Below are positions 6,579-12,309 of a stretch of 25,693 nt of DNA, piece after piece. The stretch lies in IMG/VR virus record IMGVR_UViG_3300021963_000588, positions 1-25,693 of that record; one strand, 5' to 3'. The translations under genes and the position numbers were made by a program. The notes below the pieces were generated by a model, which did no database searches, had not been told where the DNA came from, and was given only the letters and a program-made list of their open reading frames with translations. The first letter of the stretch is position 1, and the number at the start of each line of letters is the position of its first letter. Origin of the DNA: a virus.

Positions 6579-7321
6579 AATTGGTTTTGTAAAAATAGGT
6601 ACAAAGTGTAACGTTTGCACTCGTTTTTGATAAATATTTCGTTATTTAATTTCTCTAAATCCTTTGGTGTTTTAGCCGTTACCTTGTAATGTGCTATTAT
6701 CTTTTTCTTTATTTGATCTGCTTTCTCTTGACTTAGATTATTCTTGTTCAGTTCCTTTCGTTTCCATAGTACATCAAAAGCCATTGTATTTAGCAACTCC
6801 CAGCCTCTTTTAGCTGACTTCTCCCAGTTTTCGTACAATGCCTCAATAATTTCATTATCGTTGATTTTTGGTATCTCTACTGGTTGCGGTTCTACATAGG
6901 TCTTTTGTCTTACTTGTAAAGCTATTGGCTTATAAGCTGCCATCACATCCCCAAAGAATTTAGGTGTAAACATAATTGCTTTGTCAACTGAAAGTTTCCC
7001 CATTGCGTAAAGTTCAAAAGCCACTCCTAATTCCTTTAGTTTAAAGTTTCCGTAATTCTTAATTACAAATTCGCATAAAAATTGAAACAACTCTATTGTA
7101 GGTGTTTGACATCCGCTTAAAGCAATACAGGTTTTTAAATGCTCTTTTACCTCAATAGGTGAGCATCTACTAACACTCATTGTATCTAAAGCAACCACAA
7201 CCTTTAATTCATCTGGTTCAAGTTTAGTGTAAATTTCTAAGGGCATCCCATTCTCTCTCACTAAAACTTGGTTTGTGATTGTTGCTAATTCCTGTTGCAT
7301 TTGTTTCGTTTTTAAGTGCAA
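6575..7321 (-). CDS. Conserved replication-module protein (function unknown)
   Basis: This soluble, mostly helical 248-aa protein directly follows the replication initiator. Features include a mid segment FKLKELGVAFELYAMGKLSVD at about 94-114, then FTPKFFGDVMAAYKPIALQVRQ, a Pro-rich linker and a Lys-rich helical C-terminus. Its place and the 'E-x-x-x-A-F-E-x-x-x-x-G-K-L ... Y' pattern recall proteins downstream of DnaD-like initiators, for which a helicase-loader role has been guessed. No Walker motif is visible. The longest frame overlaps the initiator by 98 nt. Internal Mets at residues 8 (7300) and 26 (7246) would shorten the overlap, so the start is uncertain. Confidence 0.7.
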   Translation of the reverse strand: MHLKTKQMQQELATITNQVLVRENGMPLEIYTKLEPDELKVVVALDTMSVSRCSPIEVKEHLKTCIALSGCQTPTIELFQFLCEFVIKNYGNFKLKELGVAFELYAMGKLSVDKAIMFTPKFFGDVMAAYKPIALQVRQKTYVEPQPVEIPKINDNEIIEALYENWEKSAKRGWELLNTMAFDVLWKRKELNKNNLSQEKADQIKKKIIAHYKVTAKTPKDLEKLNNEIFIKNECKRYTLYLFLQNQL

Positions 7322-7952
7322 AAAAACCTTTCCAGCCTTTTGCTAATGATTGTTCAATTATTTGTAGTGCAATTTGTTCATCTCCATTTGATAGTTTTAC
7401 CAAGTCTTTTAAAGCCGCTTGTTCGCTTTGTGGTGTAGCGTATGTAAACTTAAATTGTTTTCTTTTAAATTCCTTCCACATTTGCCAATAATTTAAAAAT
7501 TCTTCGCTTTCAAATGGCATTATTACCATTACCTTAACCTTATCTTTAACCATTACCTTATCCATAACCATATCCTTGTCCCCTTGCAAGGGGCTTGTAT
7601 GGGGCTTATAGTTATCAATTTGTTCTTTATACCTTTCTAAATTTTTGATTATTCCAGTATGCGCTTTGTTGTTTTCACTTAAACCGCTTGGATATTGAAA
7701 CTCAATAAAACTTGGAATAAACCATTTAGTATTATTTTCTAATGGTATTATCTTATCCCCAAAATATTCTAATGCTTTTTGTTCATCTAACTTTTCGCCA
7801 ATCCTTATTTGAGCAACTTCTATATCAACTTGCCATATACCAGAATGGTCGCAGTCATCACAAACATATAACCAAAGCAGCTTATAAGGGGCTTTTAAAG
7901 ACCTAATAAAAGGCTTTTTCCATTTTTCTGTATCAGTAAATCTTTTAGCCAT
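7224..7952 (-). CDS. DnaD-like replication initiator protein
   Basis: This is a 242-aa protein. Residues 1-115 resemble the winged-helix N-terminus of phage replication proteins (RFTDTEKWKKPFIRSLKAPY, then KLLWLYVCDDCDHSGIWQVD). Residues ~121-145 are a low-complexity Lys/Met/Val/Asp linker (DKDMVMDKVMVKDKVK), and the C-terminal domain (FKFTYATPQSEQAALKDLVK, then GWKGFFALKN) resembles initiator or helicase-recruiting tails. The arrangement of wHTH, repeat-encoded linker and C-terminal recruiting domain parallels lambda O, whose linker DNA carries the origin. The linker DNA here contains repeats and a palindrome. The gene overlaps the GIY-YIG gene before it by 8 nt. Confidence 0.75.
   Translation of the reverse strand: MAKRFTDTEKWKKPFIRSLKAPYKLLWLYVCDDCDHSGIWQVDIEVAQIRIGEKLDEQKALEYFGDKIIPLENNTKWFIPSFIEFQYPSGLSENNKAHTGIIKNLERYKEQIDNYKPHTSPLQGDKDMVMDKVMVKDKVKVMVIMPFESEEFLNYWQMWKEFKRKQFKFTYATPQSEQAALKDLVKLSNGDEQIALQIIEQSLAKGWKGFFALKNETNATGISNNHKPSFSEREWDALRNLH
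7526..7593. other. Candidate replication origin inside the initiator gene
   Basis: On the plus strand CCATTACCTTA occurs at 7526-7536 and again at 7550-7560, 24 bp apart. ACCTTATC occurs at 7537-7544 and 7555-7562. TTATCCATA (7558-7566) differs by one base from the DnaA-box consensus TTATCCACA. A perfect 14-bp palindrome, CCCCTTGCAAGGGG, follows at 7580-7593. The block encodes the low-complexity linker of the initiator, as lambda ori lies within gene O. The repeats are seen; origin function is inferred. Codon bias in a Lys/Met/Val linker could also create them. Confidence 0.45.
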
Positions 7953-8301
7953 TGTGTTGAGTATTATATTTTGGTCTAATATTTTTAATTAATTCAATTT
8001 CATAATTTATATAATCTTCAGTTTCTTTAAAATAGAAAAATATATGATTGTAAATTTTTAATAAATGCCTTTTTACTTCGTGTCTTTCCCTTCTTTGATT
8101 TAAATTAATAGAACTTCCAACATATAATATGTTTGGATTAATTTCTAATCTTTCATAATCAATTAGATTTTCAAAATAGACCAACAAATAAACTCCAGCT
8201 TTTTTGGGAACAGATGAATAATTAGTACCATAAGTATTAGGAGTTTTCCAATCAATCTCTTTAATACTTAAATTTTCATTTTTAAATAAATAAACTTCCA
8301 T
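7945..8301 (-). CDS. GIY-YIG homing endonuclease
   Basis: This 118-aa protein is a minimal GIY-YIG nuclease: GVYLLVY at 36-42 (GIY), ILYVGSSINLNQR at 58-70 (YIG plus catalytic Arg), H74, the catalytic Glu among EIELI at 101-105, and RPKYN at 109-113. There is no separate DNA-binding domain apart from 30 N-terminal residues. Such free-standing enzymes cut phage DNA and promote their own spread. It lies directly before the replication initiator, overlapping its start by 8 nt, and behind a 100-nt leader with a strong predicted pseudoknot. Its DNA is more AT-rich than the flanking genes, consistent with acquisition. Confidence 0.8.
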   Translation of the reverse strand: MEVYLFKNENLSIKEIDWKTPNTYGTNYSSVPKKAGVYLLVYFENLIDYERLEINPNILYVGSSINLNQRRERHEVKRHLLKIYNHIFFYFKETEDYINYEIELIKNIRPKYNTQHNG

Positions 8302-8312
8302 AAAATAAAATA

Positions 8313-8384
8313 GCCCGCAGATTTGCTGGTAGTACGAGTACCAACGCCTCCTTGGGCAAAAAGTTTTAGATTAGAATCTCGTAC
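8313..8384 (-). ncRNA. Candidate structured leader RNA (hairpin/pseudoknot)
   Basis: On the minus strand a 7-bp stem (GUUGGUA 8345-8339 with UACCAGC 8331-8325) encloses a 7-nt loop CUCGUAC (8338-8332). A perfect complement to the loop, GUACGAG, lies upstream at 8384-8378. GCCC (8357-8354) and GGGC (8316-8313) can close the hairpin. The intervening AAGGAGG is a strong Shine-Dalgarno-like sequence, unusual in this genome. The element ends 12 nt before the GIY-YIG start. A TATTTTTG box at 8401-8394 could start a transcript just before GUACGAG. It does not match a riboswitch class I know. Confidence 0.4.
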
Positions 8385-8393
8385 ATTCTATTG

Positions 8394-8401
8394 CAAAAAT
8401 A
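8394..8401 (-). promoter_or_regulatory. Possible -7 box for the GIY-YIG leader
   Basis: TATTTTTG fits TAnnTTTG and would start RNA about 5-7 nt downstream, just before the pseudoknot strand GUACGAG. No TTG/TTTG lies at the normal -33 distance, so it is half a promoter at best. Confidence 0.22.
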
Positions 8402-8403
8402 CA

Positions 8404-8598
8404 TTAATTAACCGAATACTGTGCTATTTGTTTGTTGTTTTTTAGCTTAACAATAGTAGTTTTTATGTTCATACCATCATTCCTAAGATCACTTATTCGT
8501 GCTGCTAATCTAAAGCATCCGAACTTGTTTAAAGCATCAATTGGTGTTAACTTTCTACCTTTATTTAGATAGTTAGCGATTTGTGTTGTTTGGCTCAT
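8404..8598 (-). CDS. Small winged-helix DNA-binding protein
   Basis: This 64-aa protein fits a family of short phage winged-helix proteins: QIANYLNKGRKLTPIDALNK, then FGCFRLAARISDLRNDGMNI, then KTTIVK and a hydrophilic end. The 'L-T-P-x-x-A-L-x-x-F-G-x-x-R-L-A-A-R-I-x-D-L-R-x-x-G' pattern is the helix-turn-helix core, with a two-stranded wing after it. It lies between the SSB-tail protein and the GIY-YIG leader. It is a likely DNA-binding regulator or replication accessory factor; its target is unknown. Confidence 0.75.
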   Translation of the reverse strand: MSQTTQIANYLNKGRKLTPIDALNKFGCFRLAARISDLRNDGMNIKTTIVKLKNNKQIAQYSVN

Positions 8599-8942: not shown

Positions 8943-9437
8943 TTAAACGTAAATTAAAGTTGTTTTGTTTTTATAATATCCTAATAGTTGACCTCTTAAT
9001 GTTGATAGTTTTATATTATTATAATATGCAGCTTCTTTAACTGATTTATAATAAATACCACTCGTAGTATTTAAAACTAATCTTGAAGTATCTATAAAAT
9101 TATTAATCATTTTATTTTTTGAGTCATCTTTTATAATGTTATTCCAAGCGTGTTTCATATTTTCACTTCTTGTTGCCCATTCTAAATTTGATAAATTATT
9201 GTTAGATTTATTTCCATCAATATGATTTACATCGCATTTGTTATTTGGATTTGGCAAATATGCTAATGCTAATAATCTATGTACTTTTCTTTTATACCAG
9301 TTATTATTTTTTCGTAAATTAACTAAAATATACCCATAATTATCTTTATTAAAATGACAATATTTATTTTTTTCTACGTCAAAAACATTGCCATTAATAT
9401 CAATAGTGTAATTAGGAAATTCTTGTAATACAATCAT
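8943..9437 (-). CDS. HNH homing endonuclease (NUMOD4-HNH-NUMOD1)
   Basis: This 164-aa protein has all three homing modules. NUMOD4-like sequence (FPNYTIDINGNVFD) occupies the N-terminus. An HNH_3 nuclease follows: KVHRLLALAYLPNP, then CDVNHIDGNKSNNNLSNLEW at 68-87, with His72, Asp74 and Asn81 as catalytic or metal positions. NUMOD1-like sequence (GIYYKSVKEAAYYNNIKLST) ends the protein. It sits between the Cys-rich 56-aa gene and the SSB-tail gene. It is markedly AT-rich with Asn/Lys-rich translation, unlike its neighbours, a sign of recent acquisition. The gene looks intact. Confidence 0.88.
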   Translation of the reverse strand: MIVLQEFPNYTIDINGNVFDVEKNKYCHFNKDNYGYILVNLRKNNNWYKRKVHRLLALAYLPNPNNKCDVNHIDGNKSNNNLSNLEWATRSENMKHAWNNIIKDDSKNKMINNFIDTSRLVLNTTSGIYYKSVKEAAYYNNIKLSTLRGQLLGYYKNKTTLIYV

Positions 9438-10640: not shown

Positions 10641-11078
10641 TTAAAGTAGCACATTTAAGTTGAAAATGTCCTTTTTTATGGTATCATCAAACTTATTTGA
10701 TAGTTGACCCTTAATCTTAGAAATAGAATGTAAAACAGTGGTTCTATCCCTTTTGAATAATTGTGCAATTTCCTCGCCATTTAACTCGGTTTTTTGTTTA
10801 GTAAAATACATAGTCATTTGCCTTGCCAAAGTAACTTCCTCGCCTCTGTATTTTGACATCATTTGTCCGTACTTAATTTGGTAGTAATTGCATATCTTTT
10901 CAGCCATTTGAACTGCATACTCTTTTTGTTGTTCCTTGTCCATTCTTGTTGTTTTTATGTTTAATTGTTGATCTAATAGGTCTTTTAACCTGTTTATCTC
11001 TTTCTTTAGTTCTTTGTTCTTATCTCGCAAAACTTCAATTTCAAGTTCTGCCATATATGTTTTATGTACTTCTTTCAT
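10641..11078 (-). CDS. DnaA domain IV-like DNA-binding protein
   Basis: This 145-aa protein has an N-terminal coiled coil (residues ~10-55, heptads of Leu/Ile with Lys/Glu) followed by a DnaA C-terminal-type domain. The domain includes YRGEEVTLARQMTMYFTKQK at 78-97, LNGEEIAQLFKRD and the signature RDRTTVLHSISKI at 110-122, which corresponds to the DnaA-box recognition helix 'RDHTTVLHAxxKI'. The AAA+ ATPase domain of DnaA is absent. It could dimerise through the coiled coil and bind DnaA-type boxes at the phage origin or at host sites. It overlaps the upstream gene by one base (TAATG). Confidence 0.85.
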   Translation of the reverse strand: MKEVHKTYMAELEIEVLRDKNKELKKEINRLKDLLDQQLNIKTTRMDKEQQKEYAVQMAEKICNYYQIKYGQMMSKYRGEEVTLARQMTMYFTKQKTELNGEEIAQLFKRDRTTVLHSISKIKGQLSNKFDDTIKKDIFNLNVLL

Positions 11079-11489: not shown

Positions 11490-11610
11490 AACTTGCTTTA
11501 ATGCCTTGTGCTAATTCTAAACAGGCTTGAACTGTTTGTTTTACATAGCCTTCTGGCATATTAATTAATTGGGTTTGTAGTGTTTTAATGTAAAGTTCAA
11601 TTGCAGTCAT
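11443..11610 (-). CDS. Small hypothetical protein (55 aa)
   Basis: The frame runs from ATG at 11610 to TAA at 11445-11443. It encodes a helical N-terminal two-thirds (MTAIELYIKTLQTQLINMPE, then GYVKQTVQACLELAQGIK) and an Asn-rich tail. The last 15 codons overlap the ribbon-helix-helix gene. It fills the only free space between two supported genes and starts 3 nt after the preceding stop. No family is recognised. Confidence 0.55.
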   Translation of the reverse strand: MTAIELYIKTLQTQLINMPEGYVKQTVQACLELAQGIKASYENPNNNISNEPNQD

Positions 11611-12000: not shown

Positions 12001-12034
12001 CAAAGATAGGGTAAAACCTTATAACTTTATCAAA
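12001..12034 (-). promoter_or_regulatory. Bacteroidetes-type promoter of the replication operon
   Basis: On the minus strand TTTG (12034-12031) and TATCTTTG (12008-12001) are 22 nt apart, a full match to the -33 / -7 TAnnTTTG consensus of Bacteroidetes. Transcription would begin near 11995, about 20 nt before the first ATG at 11976. It follows two terminators and lies in the only large gene-free gap, which makes it the most convincing promoter here. Confidence 0.65.
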
Positions 12035-12190: not shown

Positions 12191-12195
12191 GGCAT

Positions 12196-12226
12196 AAAAA
12201 ACCCCGAAATAAGAATAAATCGGGGT
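12196..12226 (-). terminator. Rho-independent terminator 2
   Basis: On the minus strand ACCCCGA/TCGGGGT forms a 7-bp stem with a 12-nt loop followed by T6. It lies about 85 nt after the metalloprotein stop, behind a first terminator. No T-run follows in the plus direction. Confidence 0.75.
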
Positions 12227-12265: not shown

Positions 12266-12289
12266 AAAAAACCCCACCTTTTTAGGGGT
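12266..12289 (-). terminator. Rho-independent terminator 1
   Basis: On the minus strand ACCCC/GGGGT forms a 5-bp GC-rich stem around a 9-nt loop, followed by T6 and then ATATA. It lies about 20 nt after the stop of the HExxH gene. In tandem with terminator 2 it would end the tail/lysis transcript. Confidence 0.65.
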
Positions 12290-12309
12290 GAGGAACTATG
12301 AACGAACAA

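Follow-up and report, generated by a model that had tools for sequence, protein, structure and literature searches.

The locus considered here is a 102-nt gap (8302-8403, minus strand) in a 25,693-nt viral stretch, IMGVR_UViG_3300021963_000588 (the window), that runs from a 64-aa ORF to the start codon of a GIY-YIG-like endonuclease gene. The question it raises is whether the gap encodes a structured RNA and, if so, which gene that RNA serves. An earlier note had described a leader RNA filling the gap exactly, and the parts that it listed (the stem GUUGGUA/UACCAGC with a 7-nt loop, a complementary GUACGAG, a GCCC/GGGC stem and the box TATTTTTG) are all present on the minus strand. The features of the region are as follows.

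8404-8598, minus strand: HTH_39 gene (64-aa ORF) just upstream of the RNA (Pfam PF14090, 3.8e-14)
8394-8401, minus strand: -7 promoter box TATTTTTG (TAnnTTTG, Bacteroidota sigma-A type)
8389 (about), minus strand: predicted transcription start, from the box end at -5
8372-8390, minus strand: hairpin 1, a 6-bp stem UAGAAU/AUUCUA with loop GUACGAG at 8384-8378 (MFE fold and covariation)
8358-8371, minus strand: 14-nt linker AUCUAAAACUUUUU
8313-8357, minus strand: hairpin 2 (MFE fold and covariation of pairs)
8357-8354/8316-8313, minus strand: closing stem of hairpin 2, GCCC/GGGC
between closing and apical stems, minus strand: internal loop of hairpin 2, AAGGAGGC/AAAUCUGC
8345-8339/8331-8325, minus strand: apical 7-bp stem of hairpin 2, GUUGGUA/UACCAGC
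8338-8332, minus strand: loop of hairpin 2, CUCGUAC
8384-8378 with 8338-8332, minus strand: 7-bp kissing helix (covariation and unbiased pattern scan)
8302-8312, minus strand: U-tract UAUUUUAUUUU, from closing stem to AUG
7945-8301, minus strand: GIY-YIG-like endonuclease gene behind the leader (weak GIY-YIG Pfam match and PHROG endonuclease match)
7224-7952, minus strand: O-like replication initiator gene (phrog_678, E 4.5e-4), in relatives usually the first gene after the RNA

The complementarity between the loop of hairpin 2 and the upstream segment stands as described in the earlier note, but that segment is not a plain strand: GUACGAG caps a 6-bp hairpin of its own, which had been missed. 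Since the two 7-nt loops, GUACGAG and CUCGUAC, are exact complements and each caps its own hairpin, their contact is a loop-loop kiss. The AGGAGG within the element is indeed found, at 8352-8347, but its supposed rarity does not hold (there are seven sites on the same strand), and as it is also not conserved in the family it was rejected as a Shine-Dalgarno-like functional core. A reading of the internal loop as tandem G-A pairs or a kink-turn was likewise set aside as inconsistent across RNA types. As a single sequence the window leader has only a mildly unusual fold (z = -2.0; 7 of 200 shuffles were equally good). Among 40 Markov-shuffled windows, not one contained, in a span of 80 nt, a pair of hairpins with stems of at least 6 bp and 7-nt loops that are perfect complements; with stems relaxed to 4 bp there were 0.25 such pairs per shuffled window. 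A further kissing pair at 11527-11600 was dismissed as chance, as it sits in a coding ORF and its fold is not unusual, and the remaining intergenic gaps of the window hold no other copy of the leader RNA.

Relatives were gathered using the upstream HTH_39 gene as the anchor, by which 80 viral contigs were fetched, and through additional scans with an initiator, a DnaA-C protein and DNA patterns. In contigs that keep the usual gene order the gap contains the same architecture in several unrelated sequence types, and the two loops change together (GUACGAG/CUCGUAC, GUACCAG/CUGGUAC, GUCGGAU/AUCCGAC, GUAGGAU/AUCCUAC, GUUGCAG/CUGCAAC and GUCGCAU/AUGCGAC). About 20 different loop pairs were found in total, with loops of 6, 7 or 8 nt, a number that, on this comparison, cannot be put down to chance. 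At least 178 distinct element-plus-gene contexts were classified in viral contigs. In L033-L036, L050, L055, L066 and L068 a methylase-type gene follows the HTH gene, and the box and RNA lie behind it. A single hit was obtained in 33 of the 37 phage records searched; of the other four, one carries the element at each end of its contig, another contains a genuine second copy, and in two the second hit is weak. At L160:2409-2500 the loops are swapped relative to the GTCGCAT type, with AUGCGAC on hairpin 1 and GUCGCAU on hairpin 2; the assignment of the two strands to the hairpins thus counts for less than their pairing.

The members of the first alignment (A1) had been picked for kissing. To control for this bias, the kissing pairs were left out of a new covariance model, which then served to align 60 representative hits. 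All 24 pairs had changed on both sides, including the seven kissing pairs, and all five modelled pairs of hairpin 1 covary across the 60 elements. The kissing helix, although absent from the model, is paired in 99.5% of cells (96.1% of cells pair in A1); because related sequences share events, these cell percentages overstate the number of independent changes. The alignment has a covariation score of 0.789, which none of 500 shuffles reached (0.193 for shuffles), and pairing falls to 39-47% when the partners are slid by one column. In six rows the aligned columns do not give 7-nt loops; inspection by eye showed that these rows have perfectly complementary loops of 6 or 8 nt. In an unbiased scan the pattern specified nothing beyond one sub-type's closing stem and internal loop, both kissing loops being left free; it gave 41 new loci, of which 40 have perfect kissing hairpins and the remaining one is cut by the contig end.

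The search for homologues with compensatory changes proposed in the earlier note thus gave a strongly positive answer (24 of 24 pairs), which supports the claimed leader RNA with tertiary loop pairing and removes the worry that the palindrome GTAC makes the complementarity a matter of chance. The two-hairpin kissing structure is near certain. The apical stem contains 33 G-U and no C-A combinations, and because of this imbalance the functional strand is taken to be the minus-strand RNA. Judged by the compensatory changes in its stems and kissing helix, the leader appears to constitute a structured RNA family of its own.

The claim that this RNA has its own -7 box is borne out in the family, where a TAnnTTYG box lies upstream of 58 of the 60 representative elements. 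Between the end of the box and hairpin 1 there are usually 3-5 nt; the L107, L136 and L221 groups, which are a minority, have the box 10-19 nt away. The -7 box consensus of Bacteroidota occupies positions -12 to -5 (PMC9723704), and from the position of the box transcription is predicted to start at the first bases of hairpin 1. The linker between the hairpins is 13-18 nt long in the family and often ends with ACUUAUU. At the 3' border, the first 8 nt after the closing stem hold five to seven U in all 60 elements, a UUUUAUU motif has a fixed position relative to the closing stem in nearly all rows, and the distance from closing stem to AUG is 9-12 nt in 59 of the 60. The exception, L297, has a start codon about 20 nt from the stem, before a 43-codon ORF that is followed by a further ORF. 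A GC-rich stem leading directly into a U-tract is a feature of attenuators and conditional intrinsic terminators, and it is present here; hairpin 2 is imperfect, with internal loops, and hairpin 2 and its U-tract were not listed by a simple terminator scan of the window. No other fold stood out as an antiterminator alternative in the MFE or centroid structures of the window leader. The start context behind the leader is U-rich (61% U in -15 to -1, with U at -3 in 44 of 54), whereas the window's other genes have A-rich starts. In F. johnsoniae A-rich, unstructured starts favour translation, and Shine-Dalgarno signals are not used by Bacteroidota (PMC6847099).

Conservation does not extend to the gene behind the RNA, which in most cases is a replication initiator belonging to one of at least six unrelated kinds (Lin1244_N/phrog_2562, DUF1376-like/phrog_270, phrog_6251 replisome organizer, O-like, HTH_36 types and DnaD-like types), and in L005, L009, L046 and others an O-like initiator directly follows. 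An HNH, GIY-YIG or methylase gene stands between the RNA and the initiator in some phages, with its own AUG at the same spacing. The RNA types and downstream gene kinds occur in 40 combinations, and the same RNA is also found without a GIY-YIG gene. The RNA therefore leads a phage replication operon and is not a GIY-YIG feature; control of the endonuclease, which the earlier note had suggested as its purpose, was abandoned, as many other and unrelated genes, mostly replication initiators, stand behind the same RNA. Because the downstream gene varies while the same RNA precedes many kinds, the most fitting view of the window's GIY-YIG gene is that it was inserted between the RNA and the initiator. 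The suggestion of a group I or group II intron remnant fared no better, with no intron core match in Rfam and no intron parts seen anywhere in the family.

The leader has the look of a control element built into the virus for switching on its replication. We tentatively favour, as quite possible though short of probable, a cis-acting 5' leader of the replication operon in which hairpin 2 and the U-tract gate expression. Transcription would start at hairpin 1 from the leader's own -7 box, and the kissing helix of 6-8 bp would form within one nascent RNA. The kiss could then set how often hairpin 2 and the U-tract stop RNA polymerase or hinder 30S loading at the adjacent AUG. By default the output of replication initiator would probably be low, through termination, poor initiation or both, because the U-rich structured start contrasts with the A-rich unstructured starts favoured in F. 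johnsoniae (PMC6847099); it would rise once RNA dose, a factor or the speed of transcription and translation changes the fold. HNH, GIY-YIG and methylase genes landing behind the leader would borrow both promoter and leader. The covariation of 24 pairs including the kiss, the one-sided G-U pairs, the fixed -7 box and the varied initiators behind the RNA all speak for a cis-acting leader. The best evidence for action in cis is the constant stem-to-AUG distance across unrelated genes, and that for a terminator is the anchoring of the U-tract to the closing stem. Against it, the U-tract is imperfect in some types (UAUUUUAUU) and the internal loops of hairpin 2 may make termination weak, and the place beside the AUG could partly reflect compact genomes.

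An alternative with an outside but real chance is a free-standing small RNA, about 80-90 nt long, that has a promoter and an intrinsic terminator to itself and would act in trans, the replication gene being merely the next one in a compact genome. The box at hairpin 1, the GC-rich closing stem followed by a U-tract in 60 of 60 elements, the fixing of that tract to the stem and not to the AUG, and the usual single copy per phage record would all suit such a molecule. However, in 59 of 60 elements 9-12 nt separate the stem from the AUG although the genes that follow are unrelated, second copies likewise precede a gene at this spacing, and loops engaged with each other leave little for target pairing. 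An RNA that moves together with its promoter, whatever gene comes next, could also be a put-like antitermination RNA, binding the polymerase that made it and letting it pass pauses and terminators in the operon. Its size, two hairpins and early phage promoter resemble HK022 putL (PMC9378689), but we consider this reading unlikely: the putRNA description includes no loop-loop kiss, a U-tract and a fixed distance to the AUG would be unexpected, and there is no Rfam match.

The same spacing across unrelated genes, together with the lack of an A-rich context, might instead indicate a ribosome-recruiting leader, in which the fold positions the 30S subunit on the AUG 9-12 nt downstream and so replaces the missing Shine-Dalgarno and A-rich signals. 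That Bacteroidota make no use of Shine-Dalgarno signals (PMC6847099) also speaks for this reading. It appears improbable, since initiation would normally be hindered by a stable stem lying some 11 nt before the AUG, and we know of no bacterial precedent for a structure-guided landing site beyond the activity of a eukaryotic viral IRES in Escherichia coli (PMC9458429). A protector of the mRNA 5' end or a DNA site (an origin or recombination site) is very improbable. A transcript starting inside a hairpin would be consistent with the former, and the location of the element at the replication module, where it marks the junction at which genes swap, with the latter; but stability alone needs neither fixed AUG spacing nor a U-tract, and one-sided G-U pairing (33 against no C-A) favours RNA over DNA.

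Searches of Rfam 15 with the window and seven loci of other types gave no match at the gathering threshold, and permissive searches gave only hits with E > 1. The RNA was not found in cultured phages and plasmids by blastn with 11 RNA types, nor in six named phage regions with related genes. None was detected at E <= 0.01 in 396 Bacteroidota genomes, which is a weak negative as that search had no positive control. No description of a kissing-loop leader was found in the literature.

Several known systems share parts of this architecture. In ColE1 RNAI/RNAII, all bases of the 7-nt loops pair in a loop-loop helix that is tied to the control of replication, but the loops are on two antisense RNAs, whereas here both are on one RNA, joined by the 13-18 nt linker. 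Purine-class riboswitches have two 7-nt hairpin loops in contact, within a three-way junction with a conserved ligand core; the present RNA has no junction core, a fully Watson-Crick kiss and no Rfam match. The leaders of IncI-alpha, IncB, IncL/M and IncK plasmids involve both a reading frame within the leader and an antisense RNA. For these leaders (ColIb-P9 repZ of IncI-alpha, IncB, IncL/M repA and IncK), in which loop pairing of RNA gates synthesis of the initiator, PMC10724649 and the titles it cites describe a structured leader before the initiator with long-range hairpin-loop pairing, as here. In those leaders the pairing makes a pseudoknot, whereas here two hairpins kiss and the carriers are phages; in the window, the plus strand of 8302-8403 and its immediate surroundings has no TAnnTTTG that could serve as an antisense promoter. 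HK022 putRNA is a cis-acting RNA of about 70 nt with two hairpins just downstream of an early phage promoter (PMC9378689), and two stem-loops next to a promoter are also found here. It differs in being described without a loop-loop kiss, U-tract or fixed AUG distance, in its phages and hosts, and in giving no sequence match. The plasmid initiator leaders and HK022 putRNA are nearest in logic, but on the features compared the RNA cannot be filed with either. We class it as a new RNA family of a known kind, the regulatory leader with a defined structure; its design of two kissing hairpins is unusual.

This places a covarying RNA family that is absent from Rfam at a central control point of many environmental phages, probably of Bacteroidota, and offers a lead on phage replication control in a phylum without Shine-Dalgarno signals. 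The roughly 20 naturally orthogonal kissing pairs in one scaffold provide a clean system for loop-loop RNA switching. The family also shows homing endonucleases slotting in behind a ready-made leader and gives a practical means of locating, in phage contigs that lack annotation, where the replication module has its promoter and start codon. Should the ribosome-landing alternative be true, the RNA would be a phage counterpart of an IRES for the replication operon.

The best relatives of the terminase are in Bacteroides phages, and 75 Flavobacterium records match too. From these and the promoter type, the host group is probably Bacteroidota, and the carriers are probably a large group of uncultured viruses of Bacteroidota-type bacteria. 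The N-terminal 124 aa of the initiator (7224-7952) are 54.8% identical to the protein at 35854-36207 of Pseudanabaena phage Pan5 (ON968456.1), which is reported from a cyanobacterium, an odd host for this gene; the leader RNA is absent from that region of Pan5.

Leader and GIY-YIG gene together (window 7200-8390 against L002, L003 and L004) are 98-100% identical, whereas the flanks are mostly about 86-93% identical. Such a contrast among the four phages is what a homing gene that spread recently would leave, and the segment is read as a tract of recent transfer or homing. An HNH-like gene at 8943-9437, recognized by eye, is absent from L002 and L004, where the alignment skips over it, and is a candidate for another mobile endonuclease gene. 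Second RNA copies with different kissing loops lie in other parts of the genome, directly before NUMOD-type HNH genes, at L087:3933-4023, L153:4617-4707 and L287:4875-4968, and the RNA and this type of gene may move together. A small protein at 10641-11078 of the window consists only of a DnaA C-terminal DNA-binding domain (Bac_DnaA_C, 1.1e-18), and its relative in L107 directly precedes the RNA. Tandem classical hairpin-plus-T6 terminators occur on the minus strand of the window at 12272-12293, which the simple terminator scan did list, and at about 12195-12225, upstream of a TATCTTTG box at 12001-12008; they probably mark the boundary of the early operon.
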